Assembly: GCF_000092645.1 (NCBI RefSeq)
Contig: NC_014165.1
Coordinates: 1,984,001-2,048,000, forward strand
Direction of reading: 5' to 3'
DNA: 64,000 nt
DNA from: Thermobispora bispora DSM 43833
Lineage (GTDB): Bacteria > Actinomycetota > Actinomycetes > Streptosporangiales > Streptosporangiaceae
Below, in pieces: positions 81 to 4,774 of this stretch (positions are counted from its first letter, which is position 1; each line of letters starts with the position of its first letter). Both the position numbers and the translations under genes were made by a program. The notes under the pieces were generated by a model, which did no database searches, was not told the origin of the DNA, and saw only the letters and a list, made by a program, of their open reading frames with translations.

Positions 81-1790
81 TCACCCTCCGGTGGGCCGGG
101 CCGCCCCGGCCCTGCCGCTCCGGGTCTCGGTGACGCGGCCGTCCTCGAGGACCACGACCTGGTCGGCGAGGTGGAGGGTCGCCGGGCGGTGGGTGATCCA
201 GACGGTGGTGCAACCGGCCAGCTCCGGGCGGAGCCGGTCGAGGAGGCGGGCCTCCGTCGCGGCGTCGAGCTGGCCGGTGACCTCGTCGCAGATCAGCAGG
301 GCGGGGCGCCGCAGCAGCGCCTGGGCGAGGGCGAGGCGCTGCAGCTGGCCGCCGGACAGGTTGGCGCCGCGCTCGGTGAGGCGGGTGTGCAGCCCGTCGG
401 GGAGCGCCCGGACGGTGTCGCCGAGCTCGACGGCGTCGATGACGTGCCACAGCTCGGCCTCGCCCGCGTCGGGCCGGGCGAGCCGGAGGTTCTCGGCGAT
501 GGTGCCCGAGAAGAAGAACGGCCGCTGGTCGACGAGCGCCACCCGGCGCCGCAGCTCGTCCTCGGGCAGGTCGCGCAGGTCGGCGCCGTCCACGGTGATC
601 GTGCCGGCCGTGGGGGAGAGGCAGCGGGCGAGCAGGTAGCCCAGCGTGGACTTGCCGCTGCCGGTCGCCCCGAGGATCGCCGTCGTGGAACCCGCGGGGA
701 GGTCGAGGTCGATGCCGTCGAGCACCGGCACGGCATGGCCGCCCGGGCCCGGGTACGCGAAGCGGACCCCGCGCAGCCGCACCTCCGCGCCCGCCGGGTT
801 CCGCGGCGGGGCGGCCGGGCACGGGTGCTCCGGCTCCGGTGCGGGCGCGGCGTCGACGATGGCGAAGAACCGCCGCGCGGCCGCCAACGTGGTGCCGAAC
901 TCGCTCGCGAACGCCTCCACCGCGGTGAGCGCGGGCTCCAGGGCGACGGCGATCGCGATCGCGACCCACCAGGCCTGCTGGTCGATCCGCCTGTCCCGCC
1001 ACAGGTGCGCCCCGGCGAGCGCCACGGCGCAGGCGGTCAGCGCGAGCACGGCCAGGTTGGCCGCGCGGCGGGCCGCGGTGCGCGCGGCCAGCGTGCGGGT
1101 GCACGAGCCCGCCTCGGCGTCGAGCTCGCCGAGGCGCCGCCGCCGGCGGTCGAGGGCGCGCAGCTGGATCAGCTCCCGCAGCCCGCCGATGGTGTCGGTG
1201 ATGTGCGCGGCGATCTGCCCGCGGACGTGCTGCCGCCGCCCCGCCACCTCCCGGAGCCGCCCGCGCCACAGCGCCGGTACGGCGAGGCCGGAGAGGGCGG
1301 CCCCGGCGAGCAGGATCGCCGCGAGCGCCGGATGGGCGGCCACCGCCAGGTACCCGGCCGCGCCGAGGGAGACCACCGCGGCGGCGATCGCCGGGGCGAC
1401 CGTGTGCGCGTAGAACACCTCGATCCGGTTGACGTCCTGGGTGGCCCGGGCGGTGAGGTCGCCGGAGCGGTGCCGGTGGAGCACGCCCGGCGGCTGCCGG
1501 GCGATTGCGTCGAAGAAGACGGTCCGCAGCCGGGCCAGCACGGTGAAGGCCACCCAGTGCCCGAGGTACTGCTCGCCGTAGCGCGCCGCGCCCTTCGCCG
1601 TGGCGAGCAGCAGGATGAGCCCGAGGACGGCCGCGGCGTCCGGCGCGTTCCCGCCGCGGGCCTGCGCGACCGCGTGCACGGCGAACGCGAGCAGGCCGAT
1701 CCCCAGGCCGAGGTGGACGACGCGCAGCGCGGTGGAGGCGGCGAGCGGGACCGCGAACGGCCGGGCGAACGCGGCGAGCCGGCGGATCAT
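81..1790 (-). CDS. ABC exporter half, fused permease/ATPase, CydC-like
   Basis: This 569-residue protein has an N-terminal six-helix exporter-type membrane domain (about residues 1-310) and a C-terminal ATPase. The ATPase carries a Walker A ILGATGSGKST near residue 375, signature LSGGQLQRLALAQ and a Walker B ending ALLICDE. It is the second half of a heterodimer: its ATG overlaps the stop of the preceding gene by four bases (ATGA), so the two are translationally coupled. The family includes CydDC thiol exporters, but also exporter-fold siderophore importers such as IrtAB and YbtPQ. No cytochrome bd genes are adjacent. The Zur-type palindrome upstream of the operon makes a metal or metallophore role worth testing. 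The substrate is not shown by the sequence. Confidence 0.85.
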   Translation of the reverse strand: MIRRLAAFARPFAVPLAASTALRVVHLGLGIGLLAFAVHAVAQARGGNAPDAAAVLGLILLLATAKGAARYGEQYLGHWVAFTVLARLRTVFFDAIARQPPGVLHRHRSGDLTARATQDVNRIEVFYAHTVAPAIAAAVVSLGAAGYLAVAAHPALAAILLAGAALSGLAVPALWRGRLREVAGRRQHVRGQIAAHITDTIGGLRELIQLRALDRRRRRLGELDAEAGSCTRTLAARTAARRAANLAVLALTACAVALAGAHLWRDRRIDQQAWWVAIAIAVALEPALTAVEAFASEFGTTLAAARRFFAIVDAAPAPEPEHPCPAAPPRNPAGAEVRLRGVRFAYPGPGGHAVPVLDGIDLDLPAGSTTAILGATGSGKSTLGYLLARCLSPTAGTITVDGADLRDLPEDELRRRVALVDQRPFFFSGTIAENLRLARPDAGEAELWHVIDAVELGDTVRALPDGLHTRLTERGANLSGGQLQRLALAQALLRRPALLICDEVTGQLDAATEARLLDRLRPELAGCTTVWITHRPATLHLADQVVVLEDGRVTETRSGRAGAARPTGG

Positions 1791-3430
1791 CGCGCCACCT
1801 CCCGTGCCGCGGCGAGCTCGACCACCCGGTCGGCGACCTCCATCACCGCCGCGGAGTGCGTGGCCACGAGGATGGTCCGCGTGCCGCGCAGCCGCCGCAG
1901 CGTGTCGATGATGAGCCGCTCGGAACGGCCGTCGATGTGGCCGGTCGGCTCGTCGAGCAGCAGCACGTCGGCGTCGGTGAGCAGCGCGCGGGCGAGCGCC
2001 AGCCGCTGCGCCTGCCCGCCGGAGAGCGTGAGCCCCTCCTCGCCGACGCGCGCGTCGAGCCCGCCCGGCATCGCCTCCACCTCCTCGGCCAGGTGCGCCT
2101 GCCGCAGCGCCCACCACATCCGCTCCTCGTCGGCGTCCGGGTCGGCGAGCCGCAGGTTGCCCGCCACGGTGCCGGTGAAGAGCCAGGCGCGCTGCGGGAC
2201 GAGCACGGCCCGCGCCGGCCCGCCGCCGGGCGCGGAGAGCCGGACCGTCCCCGCCCGGGGCGCGAGCTCCCCGGCGAGCACCGACAGCAGCGTTGACTTG
2301 CCCACCCCCGACGGGCCGACCAGCGCCACCATCTCCCCGTGCCCGACCCGCAGATCGACCCCGTCGAGCACGGCCGGGCCGTCACCGTACCCGGCGACGA
2401 CCCCTGCCAGCTCCACCGCGGCCTCGCCGTCGCCCGCCTCCGGCGGCGGTACGGCACGGCGCTCACCCGCGCCGGCGATGGCGTGGACCACCTGGCGTTC
2501 CGCCGCCCGGCCCGCCATGGCGATGTAGAAGAACCGGCCCACGACGCCGATCGGCTCGGTCAGCAGCAGCGAGATCAGCACGAGCGCGATCGCGGTGCCC
2601 AGGGAGATCGCGCCCGCGGCGTGCCGTACCAGCGCGACCGCGGTACCCGCCCCGATCAGCGCCCCGTAGAAGGCCACGTCGGTGACGAGCAGCACGACCT
2701 GGTTGCCCGCGAGCAGGCGCATCGTGGCCCGCCGGTGCCGCTCGCTCTCCTCCGCGAGCAGCCGGGACCGCCGCCCGGCCGCGCCGAGCAGGGTGAGGAG
2801 CCGGAGCCCTTGGATGGACTCGAGGAACTGCGCCGCCAGCCGCCGGGACTGGGCCTGGTAGCCGGCCGTGGAGGTGCGGAACAGCCGCTGAAACCCGCCG
2901 ATCACCAGCGGCACCGCGGCCACCACCGCGAGCAGCGCGGCCGCCGCGGCCGGGTCGGCGACCACCGCGACGACCGCCACCACGACGAGCGGGGTGGTGA
3001 CCGCCGCGATGAGCTCGCCGAGGAAGCCGCCGCGCCACGCCGCGACCTTGGCGGCGCCCTCGGTGGCGAGGGAGGCGAGCGATCCCGTGACCGGGCCACG
3101 GGCCGGCCTGGACCTGCCGAGCGGGCCGCGGGCGAGGATCGCCTCATGGATCCGCTCCCGCACCGCGATCTCGGCGGTGGCCTCGCCCGCCCCGCTCGCG
3201 TGTCCCCGGCCGAGCGCCCCGGCGACGGCGAGGGCGATCCCGGCCCCCATGAGCCCGGGCCCGCGCCACCCGATCGCGCCGCCCGCCGTCACAGCGTCGA
3301 TCAGGCCACCGATGCCCAGGTAGCACAGGCACAGCCCGGCCGCGCTCAGCCAGCCGCACACCACGGCGGCGAGGACGTGGCCGCGCACCGGGAGCGCCGG
3401 CCGCGGCGCGGACGGCACCGGCCCGCTCAT
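1787..3430 (-). CDS. ABC exporter half, fused permease/ATPase, CydD-like
   Basis: This 547-residue partner of the preceding CydC-like protein has a membrane domain over about residues 20-310. Its ATPase has Walker A LVGPSGVGKST near residue 370, signature LSGGQAQRLALARALL and Walker B VLLLDEPTGHID. The start is ATG at 3430 because a strong GGAGGTGG ribosome site lies just before it; an in-frame upstream ATG lacks one. The closest family resemblance is to CydD. Its start overlaps the stop of a possible 78-codon leader ORF whose own start follows a Zur-type box, which suggests zinc-dependent transcription of the whole unit (inference). Confidence 0.85.
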   Translation of the reverse strand: MSGPVPSAPRPALPVRGHVLAAVVCGWLSAAGLCLCYLGIGGLIDAVTAGGAIGWRGPGLMGAGIALAVAGALGRGHASGAGEATAEIAVRERIHEAILARGPLGRSRPARGPVTGSLASLATEGAAKVAAWRGGFLGELIAAVTTPLVVVAVVAVVADPAAAAALLAVVAAVPLVIGGFQRLFRTSTAGYQAQSRRLAAQFLESIQGLRLLTLLGAAGRRSRLLAEESERHRRATMRLLAGNQVVLLVTDVAFYGALIGAGTAVALVRHAAGAISLGTAIALVLISLLLTEPIGVVGRFFYIAMAGRAAERQVVHAIAGAGERRAVPPPEAGDGEAAVELAGVVAGYGDGPAVLDGVDLRVGHGEMVALVGPSGVGKSTLLSVLAGELAPRAGTVRLSAPGGGPARAVLVPQRAWLFTGTVAGNLRLADPDADEERMWWALRQAHLAEEVEAMPGGLDARVGEEGLTLSGGQAQRLALARALLTDADVLLLDEPTGHIDGRSERLIIDTLRRLRGTRTILVATHSAAVMEVADRVVELAAAREVAR

Positions 3431-3663
3431 CGCACCACCTCCGGGCGGATCCGGGCGATCTCCTCCGGCCCGCCGGCGAGGCGGGTCCCGCACGGCCCGG
3501 CCGCGCCCCGGCCCGGTGCCGCGGCCGCGATGCCGGCCGCCCGACGGCGGTGCCGTACCCGCGGCCTGGCAGGGAGATCGCCGGTTCCGGGGAGCCGGAC
3601 GGGCGGGGCCGGGAGCCCCGGCGCCACCGGTGTCGCTCGATCAGCGGGTGCTCGTGTGGACAT
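3427..3663 (-). CDS. Possible small ORF between Zur-type box and ABC genes
   Basis: A 78-codon ORF, rich in Arg, Pro and Ala, starts at an ATG about 22 bases past the Zur-type palindrome and ends in an ATGA overlap with the CydD-like gene. The spacing would suit a leaderless transcript. The protein matches no family I recognise and its composition is what random high-GC DNA gives, so it may simply be the 5' leader of the operon. The overlap and position are the only arguments for a real gene. Confidence 0.3.
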   Translation of the reverse strand: MSTRAPADRATPVAPGLPAPPVRLPGTGDLPARPRVRHRRRAAGIAAAAPGRGAAGPCGTRLAGGPEEIARIRPEVVR

Positions 3664-3685
3664 ATGGCCCATACCTTGGCATGAG

Positions 3686-3700
3686 TGAAAACGATTTTCA
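3686..3700. promoter_or_regulatory. Zur-type operator (Fur family 7-1-7 palindrome)
   Basis: TGAAAACGATTTTCA is one base away from the actinobacterial Zur consensus TGAAAATnATTTTCA. It overlaps a second perfect palindrome, GATTTTCAAAATC (3693-3705). It sits in an AT-rich patch of otherwise GC-rich intergenic DNA, about 256 bases before the CydD-like gene and just before the small ORF. Other Fur-family members bind similar sites, so the assignment to Zur is inference. Confidence 0.65.
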
Positions 3701-4153
3701 AAATCGCCCATTCGGCGGGGCCGGGCGGTCATCGGTGCGGACCGGCTCGCGGGGGACGAGCGATGTCCGTTCTGAGCCCCGGCCACGGCTCACCCTGAAT
3801 CGCGAGCGGCTCGTTCCGCGCGGCGCGGCCACGTCACCTCTGGCGGCGGGCGGGCGCGCCCGGTCAGGCTCGCCGCCTGCGGGCGGCCGGTCCGCCGCAC
3901 CCGGCTTCGGCCGGTTCGCCGCACCGGGTGCCCGCCCACGGTCTCGCCGTACGGCGGACGCTATACCTGATCTACAACGTAAAGGCGCTGGGTCGTGGCA
4001 CGCGATCCGGCCCTTCCATTCTCGCCTCAGCCCCACACACCGGCGACCGGCCAAGAGAACGCCTCAGGCAGCCCGGCACGGAGCCGGCCGGTCCGGCGGA
4101 GTGCGGTAGGCGCCGGGGATGGGGAGCGGTACCGGCCCGGATAATCTGCTCCC
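3701..4153. other. Intergenic region between Zur-type box and yigZ-like gene
   Basis: About 450 bases with no supported gene. It contains an AT-rich element at 3970-3987 (minus-strand reading CGCCTTTACGTTGTAGAT, followed by TATAGC) that matches 16 of 18 bases of a sequence in front of the tyrosine recombinase gene (18813-18830). The rest is GC-rich and featureless. Confidence 0.5.
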
Positions 4154-4774
4154 GTGGCCGCGACATACCGGACGATCAAGGACGTCGTCGAACACGAGAC
4201 GGTCATCCGACGGTCCAGGTTCATCTGCGCGCTCGCCCCGGCCGAGTCGGAGGAGGCGGCGCAGGCGTTCATCGCCGAGCGCAAGCGGCGCCACGCGGAC
4301 GCCACCCACAACTGCTCCGCCTACGTGATCGCGGGTGGGCCGCGCAGGTCCGACGATGACGGCGAGCCGGGCGGGACCGCGGGCACGCCCATGCTCGAGA
4401 TGCTCATCCGGCGCGGCTACGCGGACATCGTCGCCGTGGTCACCCGGTACTTCGGCGGCATCCTCCTCGGCGCCGGCGGGCTCGCCCGCGCGTACGGCGG
4501 GGCGGTCGGGGCCGCGCTCGACCGGGCCATGCCGGTGGAGATGGTCCCGGCCTCGCTCGTCACGGTGACCGTCGATCACGCCCAGGCCGGGCGCCTGGAG
4601 AACGACCTGCGCGCCTCGCCGTACCGGCTCAGGAGCGTCGACTACGGCGCCCGGGTGACCTTCGAGGTCGCGGTGGCCCGGCACCTGCTGCCGTCGTTCG
4701 AGGAGTGGCTCGCCACCGCGACCGCCGGGCGGGCCACGACCGCCCAGGGCGGCCTGGTCTACCTGCCCGGCTGA
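4154..4774 (+). CDS. YigZ/IMPACT family protein (UPF0029)
   Basis: This 206-residue protein has the N-terminal UPF0029 fold, including the signature region around GAGGLARAYGGAV, followed by a C-terminal DUF1949-like domain (about residues 130-200). The start is GTG at 4154, giving the usual beginning (MAATYRTIKD). The family is widespread; the eukaryotic homologue IMPACT acts on the GCN2 pathway, while the bacterial role is poorly defined. It is a single-gene unit convergent with the isochorismate synthase gene. Confidence 0.9.
   Translation: MAATYRTIKDVVEHETVIRRSRFICALAPAESEEAAQAFIAERKRRHADATHNCSAYVIAGGPRRSDDDGEPGGTAGTPMLEMLIRRGYADIVAVVTRYFGGILLGAGGLARAYGGAVGAALDRAMPVEMVPASLVTVTVDHAQAGRLENDLRASPYRLRSVDYGARVTFEVAVARHLLPSFEEWLATATAGRATTAQGGLVYLPG

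Follow-up and report, generated by a model that had tools for sequence, protein, structure and literature searches.

What does an ATP-binding cassette (ABC) transporter pair of CydDC-like sequence do behind a box of the Zur type? The question is raised by a stretch of 64,000 nucleotides from Thermobispora bispora DSM 43833 (contig NC_014165.1, positions 1,984,001 to 2,048,000), referred to below as the window, at the left end of which the two genes lie on the minus strand. A preliminary description of this DNA had proposed a zinc-linked transporter, possibly a metallophore importer in the style of IrtAB or YbtPQ, rather than a system for the assembly of cytochrome bd. The analysis reported here suggests that the pair is probably a Zur-repressed ABC transporter from a side branch of the CydDC family, which would be induced by zinc starvation and would be the surviving half of a Zur operon. 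The features on which this reading rests are the following.

81-1790, minus strand: CydC-like half (P0001, 569 aa), with Walker A at 374, LSGGQ at 478 and Walker B at 498.
1787-3430, minus strand: CydD-like half (P0002, 547 aa), with Walker A at 372, LSGGQ at 469 and Walker B at 490; Tyr302 occupies the position of Escherichia coli CydD His312.
3427-3663, minus strand: an open reading frame (ORF) of 78 codons, called the scar ORF here, in which the N-terminus of a FecCD permease appears fused to the last residues of a Peripla_BP_2 protein.
3483-3545, minus strand: probable deletion junction zone between two blocks shared with a relative (L061), 62 nt long here and ~2,727 nt long in that relative.
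3686-3700, no strand assigned: very probable Zur box, TGAAAACGATTTTCA, a 7-1-7 palindrome 22 nt upstream of the start codon of the scar ORF.
3692-3706, no strand assigned: second perfect palindrome, CGATTTTCAAAATCG, with 7-bp arms, overlapping the box.

Read along the minus strand, the box (3700-3686) is followed by 22 nt, an ATG at 3663, the 78-codon frame to 3427, the CydD-like gene and the CydC-like gene, and ATGA overlaps link the scar ORF with P0002 and P0002 with P0001. The distance from the box to the first ABC start codon is 255 nt, a gap that is occupied by the 78-codon ORF. The box has the sequence first described for it, one mismatch away from the consensus TGAAAATNATTTTCA, and it agrees at every core position with the znuA motif published for actinobacteria, taaTGaNAANNNTTNtCANta, which is given alongside the Streptomyces coelicolor Zur motif, tGaNNatSatNNtCa, in Choi et al. 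2017 (PMC5472717). There is one exact copy in the whole single-contig genome of 4,189,976 bases. On both strands of the whole window the box is the sole place matched at up to three mismatches, where shuffling gives an expectation of 0.07, and a first-order Markov simulation produced motif matches in 0 of 60 windows. The genome-wide search for further boxes that had been proposed earlier returned two places in all that differ from TGAAAATNATTTTCA by at most one mismatch, namely the box itself (one mismatch) and a site at 417794, which lies 66 nt upstream of a ZnuA gene (PF01297, 1.4e-89). The second palindrome, which was also correctly described, is absent from the boxes of four relatives; it was rejected as a second Zur site for this reason, and is probably incidental.

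The neighbours of similar boxes in other genomes are informative on the regulator. The motif TGANAAYSRTTNTCA, with up to one mismatch, was found at 3, 7, 14, 9 and 8 places (total 41) in the window genome and four relatives carrying the ABC pair, and the reversed pattern, used as the control, at 0 in each. Surroundings were fetched for 38 of the 41 places, and the neighbour classes were partly checked against Pfam and partly read by eye. As the central letters of TGANAAYSRTTNTCA were picked after the boxes of the relatives had been seen, the ABC operons among its matches are not independent, while the other neighbours are. Five of the 13 exact places are upstream of ZnuA genes (L009, L082, L083, L085, L088) and three precede exporter-fold ABC operons (the window, L065/L081, L090/L093), with others upstream of a FUR-family gene (L095), an SBP_bac_5 gene (L086) and a CooC-like ATPase gene (L012, by eye), and two (L080, L084) at unclear neighbours. 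The 28 one-mismatch places include 15 at metal-type genes or ABC operons, two at a gene of the Pfam class "NucS shadow ORF", eight with nothing metal-like and three outside the 38. For example, such places adjoin a ribosomal protein L31 gene (L098), a CobW_C gene (L099), a Peripla_BP_2 gene (L106), a gene whose product is 72% identical to the Zur of the window genome (L102), and a non-ribosomal peptide synthetase (NRPS) gene with TubC, Condensation and AMP-binding domains (L107). Given that znuA, ribosomal-protein, zur-like, CobW and NRPS genes recur beside the motif together with exporter-fold ABC pairs, the box is very probably a Zur box. The zinc linkage proposed at the outset is in this way upheld by comparative genomics, and zinc control of the pair appears highly likely.

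The Zur homologue of the window genome (L006), encoded at about 1341260-1341688 on the minus strand, matches 3mwm (9e-45) and 7vo0 (2e-44), which we take to be S. coelicolor Zur, and Mycobacterium tuberculosis FurB (2o03, 4e-41). The genome encodes three Fur-family proteins, and the box could in principle serve another of them, such as an iron Fur or FurA, or be a chance AT-rich palindrome, given its two overlapping palindromes and the eight of the 41 motif places that have no metal gene beside them (by eye). These possibilities are very improbable, however, in view of the ZnuA genes behind five of the 13 exact places, the zinc character of most of the other recurring neighbours, the agreement with the published actinobacterial motif and the lack of control matches in the five genomes. 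One of the other two Fur-family genes lies by a catalase gene (L008, PF00199) and the third in another context (L007); NCBIfam gave the Fur paralogues no name.

A number of further boxes were observed in this survey. Zur-type boxes stand directly upstream of a CooC/ParA-like ATPase gene in three genera (by eye), at G000:C1:4108007-4108021 in the window genome (L012 1501-1515), L101 1810 and L105 1795, and this gene, whose copy in the window genome has no Pfam match at 1e-5, is possibly an undescribed Zur target. In Thermocatellispora tengchongensis, a box (L107 1833) is found between the NRPS gene (TubC_N, Condensation, AMP-binding) and an AMP-ligase-like gene (by eye), a candidate zincophore cluster. 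One-mismatch boxes by the same gene in two genera (L108 1903 and L110 1730), whose "NucS shadow ORF" proteins are 64% identical, may be fortuitous or connected with nucS. At L093 (4436 and 4462) and L094 (4921 and 4947), two boxes separated by 26 bp have divergent binding-protein/FecCD genes on one side and, on the other, exporter-fold ABC pairs of a second, different lineage. The perfect palindrome TGATAACGATTATCA (L113 1057, L114 5471) is located in two Microbacterium genomes upstream of a gene for a substrate-binding protein (SBP) that is 43-44% identical to that of the operon described below, with no ABC pair downstream.

The relatives also indicate what once stood between the box and the pair. 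Close orthologues of P0002 occur in four of the 149 other genomes of the family, at 90, 88, 80 and ~70% identity, with less similar ones at 44 and 43%; the locus at 90% (L066) begins inside the gene and gives no information on the operon. At L061, L062, L063 and L065, five genes form an operon of the order box, fecCD, fecE, SBP, abcD, abcC, with the pair as its last two members; the order was checked with Pfam in L061 (FecCD permease, Fec-type ATPase, Peripla_BP_2 protein, D, C). The looser motif places a box at the start of all four operons, which in L061 and L062 lies 20-21 nt upstream of the probable fecCD start, whereas the stricter consensus at up to two mismatches finds it in none. Two blocks of the window align by blastn to this arrangement in L061: 3699-3545 pairs with the promoter and the beginning of fecCD (76.6% over 158 columns, E 7e-27), and 3483-3410 with the end of the binding-protein gene and the start of D (80.5% over 77 columns, E 6e-15). 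The net loss of ~2.67 kb covers the remainder of fecCD, fecE and most of the SBP gene. The scar ORF scores 106 in local alignment with the FecCD start and 58 with the binding-protein end, and 0 of 1000 shuffles reach either score; it was on these grounds, and on the blastn blocks, that 3427-3663 was rejected as a genuine small gene. As the scar ORF joins the start of FecCD to the end of the SBP in frame, and as its stop codon shares an ATGA with the start of the CydD-like gene, the pair stays coupled to the promoter. No relocated SBP gene was found, the sole match in the same genome being a 30% paralogue at 1.397 Mb. A scan of the named genomes with the SBP alignment matched at least 589 stretches, of which three loci were confirmed. 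Taken together, these comparisons indicate that the importer half has almost certainly been deleted in this genome, a loss that the preliminary description had overlooked. In T. tengchongensis, the Peripla_BP_2 gene (L062 9054-10043, on a contig shared with L112) has an in-frame stop at codon 145 and the ABC pair is intact; the importer half is possibly decaying there as well, with a sequencing error as the alternative.

A pair that has lost its partners might simply be a functionless remnant that has not yet been degraded, and the loss of three of the five operon genes, together with the in-frame stop in the binding-protein gene of L062, could be taken in this sense. Both ABC genes are full length, however, with Walker A, LSGGQ, Walker B and H-loop all present, and the reading frames and the ATGA coupling are preserved across the scar. 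By a simple Nei-Gojobori count, the pairwise ratio of nonsynonymous to synonymous change (dN/dS) against L061 is 0.30 (D) and 0.40 (C), within a range of 0.26-0.44 for the intact relatives among themselves. The unique amino-acid changes in the window and in L061, respectively, number 24 and 25 (D) and 24 and 35 (C) with L062 as the outgroup, and 25 and 21 (D) and 19 and 38 (C) with L063. These values argue that the pair has not been accelerated since the loss of the importer, and make the dying remnant improbable.

The next question is which kind of ABC pair has been retained. The designation as an ABC pair stands, in that the best NCBIfam matches are CydD and CydC, an exporter-fold heterodimer of type IV. 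Both scores are below the cut-offs (278.2 against 435 for P0002 and, narrowly, 327.1 against 329.05 for P0001). Transmembrane-domain (TMD) profiles, built from 5 and 4 rows, place E. coli CydD (1.1e-14) and CydC (1.8e-23) at the top of the solved proteins, and 6p6i, presumably YbtPQ, is matched by the C half only, and weakly (4.5e-6). When whole ABC chains were used in the searches of the PDB, the best 60 rows were dominated by eukaryotic transporters. A tree of 35 rows that includes E. coli CydDC has one group of the cydAB-linked proteins and those of E. coli (D 100/99, C 100/99), another of the window proteins with L061-L063, L065, L064 and L143 (D 100/100, C 99/99), and a third of the Zur-boxed pairs L092-L094 (D 100/98, C 99/98); the trees have several truncated rows, a midpoint root and a long-branch warning, and seven rows of the 35-row tree are of unusual composition. 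The separation of the third group implies that Zur-type boxes precede two separate branches of the superfamily. A phylum-wide search passed 1e-50 in 26 of 296 genomes, with loci mostly at 30-37% identity, and 6 of the 27 new loci are beside cydA or cydB within the stretch examined. Of the four best, L143 falls in the window clade and L144 and L146 adjoin that clade, while L145 is without a placement. The sequence comparisons assign the pair to a side branch of the CydDC family and not to the IrtAB/YbtPQ-type systems.

This kinship might suggest that the pair is the CydDC transporter of cytochrome bd assembly itself, in line with its best NCBIfam matches. A complete cydA-cydB-D-C cluster is present at 3.216-3.222 Mb, however, and for this reason that role can be assigned elsewhere. 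The preliminary description had named a cydAB operon directly beyond the left edge as evidence that would undo the zinc-linked reading, and CydA is matched three times in the genome, at 0.817 and 3.22 Mb, in each case far from the pair. With scores under the NCBIfam cut-offs, a position outside the cydAB-linked clade and the replacement of the residues at the Arg136 and His312 positions, a role in cytochrome bd assembly is scarcely credible, and the rejection of that role in the preliminary description holds. No box was found at the 24 cydAB-linked loci (22 distinct), for 20 of which the upstream region of the operon is mostly outside the stretch examined. The second cydA-like gene (G000:C1:817298-818389) stands apart from cydABDC and matches the family in two pieces.

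The residues of the substrate pocket are a further source of evidence. The structural work on E. coli CydDC (PMC10374445) gives CydC His85 as an axial heme ligand, CydC Arg81 and Arg136 as contacts of the heme propionates, and CydD His312 as the second ligand. In P0001, the equivalents are His78 (His85), Gln74 (Arg81) and His129 (Arg136). His85 is kept in 17 of 17 C rows; the Arg136 position is Arg in all five cydAB-linked rows and His in the 12 others; the His312 position is Tyr in the seven rows of the window group and His in the other 10; and Arg81 is replaced by Gln in the window clade, or by His in L065. Over 57 loci, 26 are cydAB-linked, two of them unreadable, and all 24 readable ones have His85 with Arg136 and none the His/His combination. 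The 31 loci that are not cydAB-linked in the stretch examined comprise 15 with His/His, 10 with His/Arg, which may be cydAB-linked further off, and 6 with other readings, which derive in part from fused proteins and are unreliable. With Arg136 and His312 replaced and His85 kept, it follows that the substrate site has changed and that its key histidine stays.

Given these elements, the following course of events can be proposed. The ancestral operon would have run from the box through fecCD, fecE and the gene for the SBP to abcD and abcC, and an internal deletion would have taken the Fec-type importer. It would have spared the promoter under Zur control, together with a single frame made of the opening codons of fecCD and the final codons of the SBP gene. 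When zinc is sufficient, zinc-loaded Zur would occupy the 15-bp box by the promoter and block transcription, as the motif and its precedents suggest; when zinc is low, repression would be lifted and the coupled pair produced. The heterodimer, with its type IV exporter fold and full motifs at both ATPase sites, would then move a small molecule of the metal-chelate type, such as a metallophore or a chelate resembling a tetrapyrrole. Some form of metal-chelate transport is likely, with the substrate class and the direction both deduced from context; a metal chelate is the favoured substrate, and heme or a thiol a possible one. A bolder version, offered tentatively and more doubtful than not, is that a Zur-controlled branch of CydDC re-tuned its heme pocket from His-Arg-His to His-His-Tyr for a zinc chelate or another metal-tetrapyrrole, working with a Fec-type importer in zinc-starved actinobacteria and left free-standing in this species by the deletion of the importer.

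Inward transport of a metallophore would be one form of such activity. In this case, the pair alone would act in the manner of IrtAB, YbtPQ or MptABC, pirating the zinc complexes of neighbouring organisms, and the loss of the importer would be tolerable. The analogy was reasonable, as Zur-controlled exporter-fold pairs are known experimentally, i.e., the IrtAB-like mptABC (PMC4298942) and the YbtPQ-like cdtPQ (PMC6711530). The pair persists without the importer and evolves no faster than its intact relative, and Foldseek ranks IrtB chains first for the single-chain model of P0002, although with low TM-scores, and other type IV exporters for that of P0001. There is no NRPS condensation domain in the genome, which, together with the former Fec-type partner, fits the uptake of a metallophore made by others. 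A precedent for an exporter-fold importer with a Fec-type binding protein is found in mycobacteria, where FecB is reported to co-purify with IrtB (PMC10553834). On the other hand, the TMD sequences are nearest to CydC and CydD rather than to YbtPQ or IrtAB, so that the importer style proposed at first was not sustained, and the Fec-type importer of the relatives already performs uptake, so that a second one would be superfluous. Inward metallophore transport is possible but somewhat doubtful on this evidence. Synthesis of a zincophore by genes to the left of base 1, which had been suggested as a place to look, was rejected, as none was seen by eye in 14 kb and the genome lacks the Condensation domain; the nearest genes there are a Peripla_BP_4 gene and a BPD_transp_2 gene and, by eye, those of a GntR regulator and MenD.

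Several observations weigh against a zinc-regulated chelate transporter of the CydDC side branch. The stricter consensus TGAAAATNATTTTCA, at up to two mismatches, scores no site at the loci of the relatives (L061-L070), whose boxes are visible only with the looser motif, the central letters of which were chosen with those boxes in sight; the published looser motif, which is independent, is matched with 0 mismatches in L065, 1 in L061 and L063, and 2 in L062. No box is present in the 16 kb examined around L064 (G117), a member of the clade without importer genes; this locus adjoins an ArsR-family gene and a Cation_efflux gene, which is again a metal link. The structure models, with a mean pLDDT (predicted local distance difference test) of 81 and 76, resemble type IV exporters generally and do not separate CydDC from the others. 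The dN/dS ratios are of moderate size, and relaxed selection would have had no time to show after a recent deletion. Finally, the pair of the clade member L143, from another actinobacterial family, is inside a heme-biosynthesis operon, which suggests a heme or porphyrin substrate; this operon (L143 5587-14722) runs hemH-hemF-D-C-hemA-hemC-...-hemB (ferrochelatase, coproporphyrinogen oxidase, D, C, GlutR, porphobilinogen deaminase, ALAD).

This last arrangement, with the pair between hemF and hemA, leads to the proposal of a CydDC-like exporter of heme, porphyrin or a thiol that is induced by zinc starvation, the need for which would be created by the zinc shortage or by an imbalance of zinc-protoporphyrin and heme. 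The kinship with CydDC, the retention of His85 in all C rows and the hem operon of L143 keep heme or porphyrin export under consideration, and the heme exporter hrtBA of Corynebacterium diphtheriae is described as zinc-repressed and Zur-regulated in PMC6711530. However, the change of His312 to Tyr in seven of the seven clade members and those of Arg81 to Gln (His in L065) and Arg136 to His run counter to heme, and the Fec-type partner genes of the relatives indicate the uptake of an extracellular chelate, which leaves such an exporter unlikely. The reading preferred here is still that of a Zur-repressed side-branch transporter for a metal chelate.

The gene to the right of the box, at 4154-4774 of the window, is divergent, belongs to the YigZ/IMPACT family (TIGR00257, barely over the cut-off) and, at 453 nt from the box, is probably unrelated.

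The Zur control of exporter-fold pairs is already established, and what is new here is the deleted importer half and the changed pocket; in the open-licence literature, to which the search was confined, no Zur-controlled pair of the CydDC branch was found, judging by titles and the openings of abstracts. The loss of the importer in this genome, together with the Microbacterium binding-protein genes that lack a pair, suggests that the halves of a Zur operon can work apart, and each can therefore be tested alone. There is also a trap for annotation, as genes named cydD and cydC far from cydAB may be zinc genes.

Among the known systems, mptABC of Mycobacterium avium ssp. paratuberculosis is similar in having exporter-fold ABC genes behind a Zur box, and its printed box contains the same half, AACGATTTTC. 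Its description (PMC4298942) presents it as IrtAB-like, regulated by zinc and FurB/Zur, and induced by zinc rather than iron starvation, and includes a mutation of box 3 and the deletion of furB in the M. smegmatis host. Its locus is a 90-kb zinc island, with a cluster for siderophore synthesis nearby, whereas the window pair is CydDC-like and stands alone after a probable deletion in a genome with no NRPS condensation domain. The cdtPQ-sidBA / dip2162-2165 system of C. diphtheriae likewise combines a Zur-repressed ABC pair with a separate SBP-dependent ABC importer, but it is YbtPQ-like, includes NRPS and polyketide synthase (PKS) genes, is also under iron/DtxR regulation (PMC6711530), and has an importer of the NikA/OppA type in place of the FecCD/Peripla_BP_2 type seen in the relatives of the window pair. 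The coelibactin cluster of S. coelicolor, a Zur-repressed zincophore system, shares the same type of 15-bp Zur box (PMC5472717), and differs in possessing biosynthetic genes, for which the window genome has no condensation domain.

The closest comparison is with E. coli CydDC, presented as a heme transporter for cytochrome bd assembly in PMC10374445; the substrates of CydDC have been disputed between thiols and heme. It is the nearest solved system by TMD profile, and the two share the heme-ligand His85 and a heterodimer encoded by adjacent genes. The window pair differs from it in lacking a link to cydAB, in the box of the Zur type, and in the changes of Arg136 to His, Arg81 to Gln and His312 to Tyr. 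A zinc-regulated sister branch of CydDC with a changed pocket would provide a natural comparison for the role of these residues.

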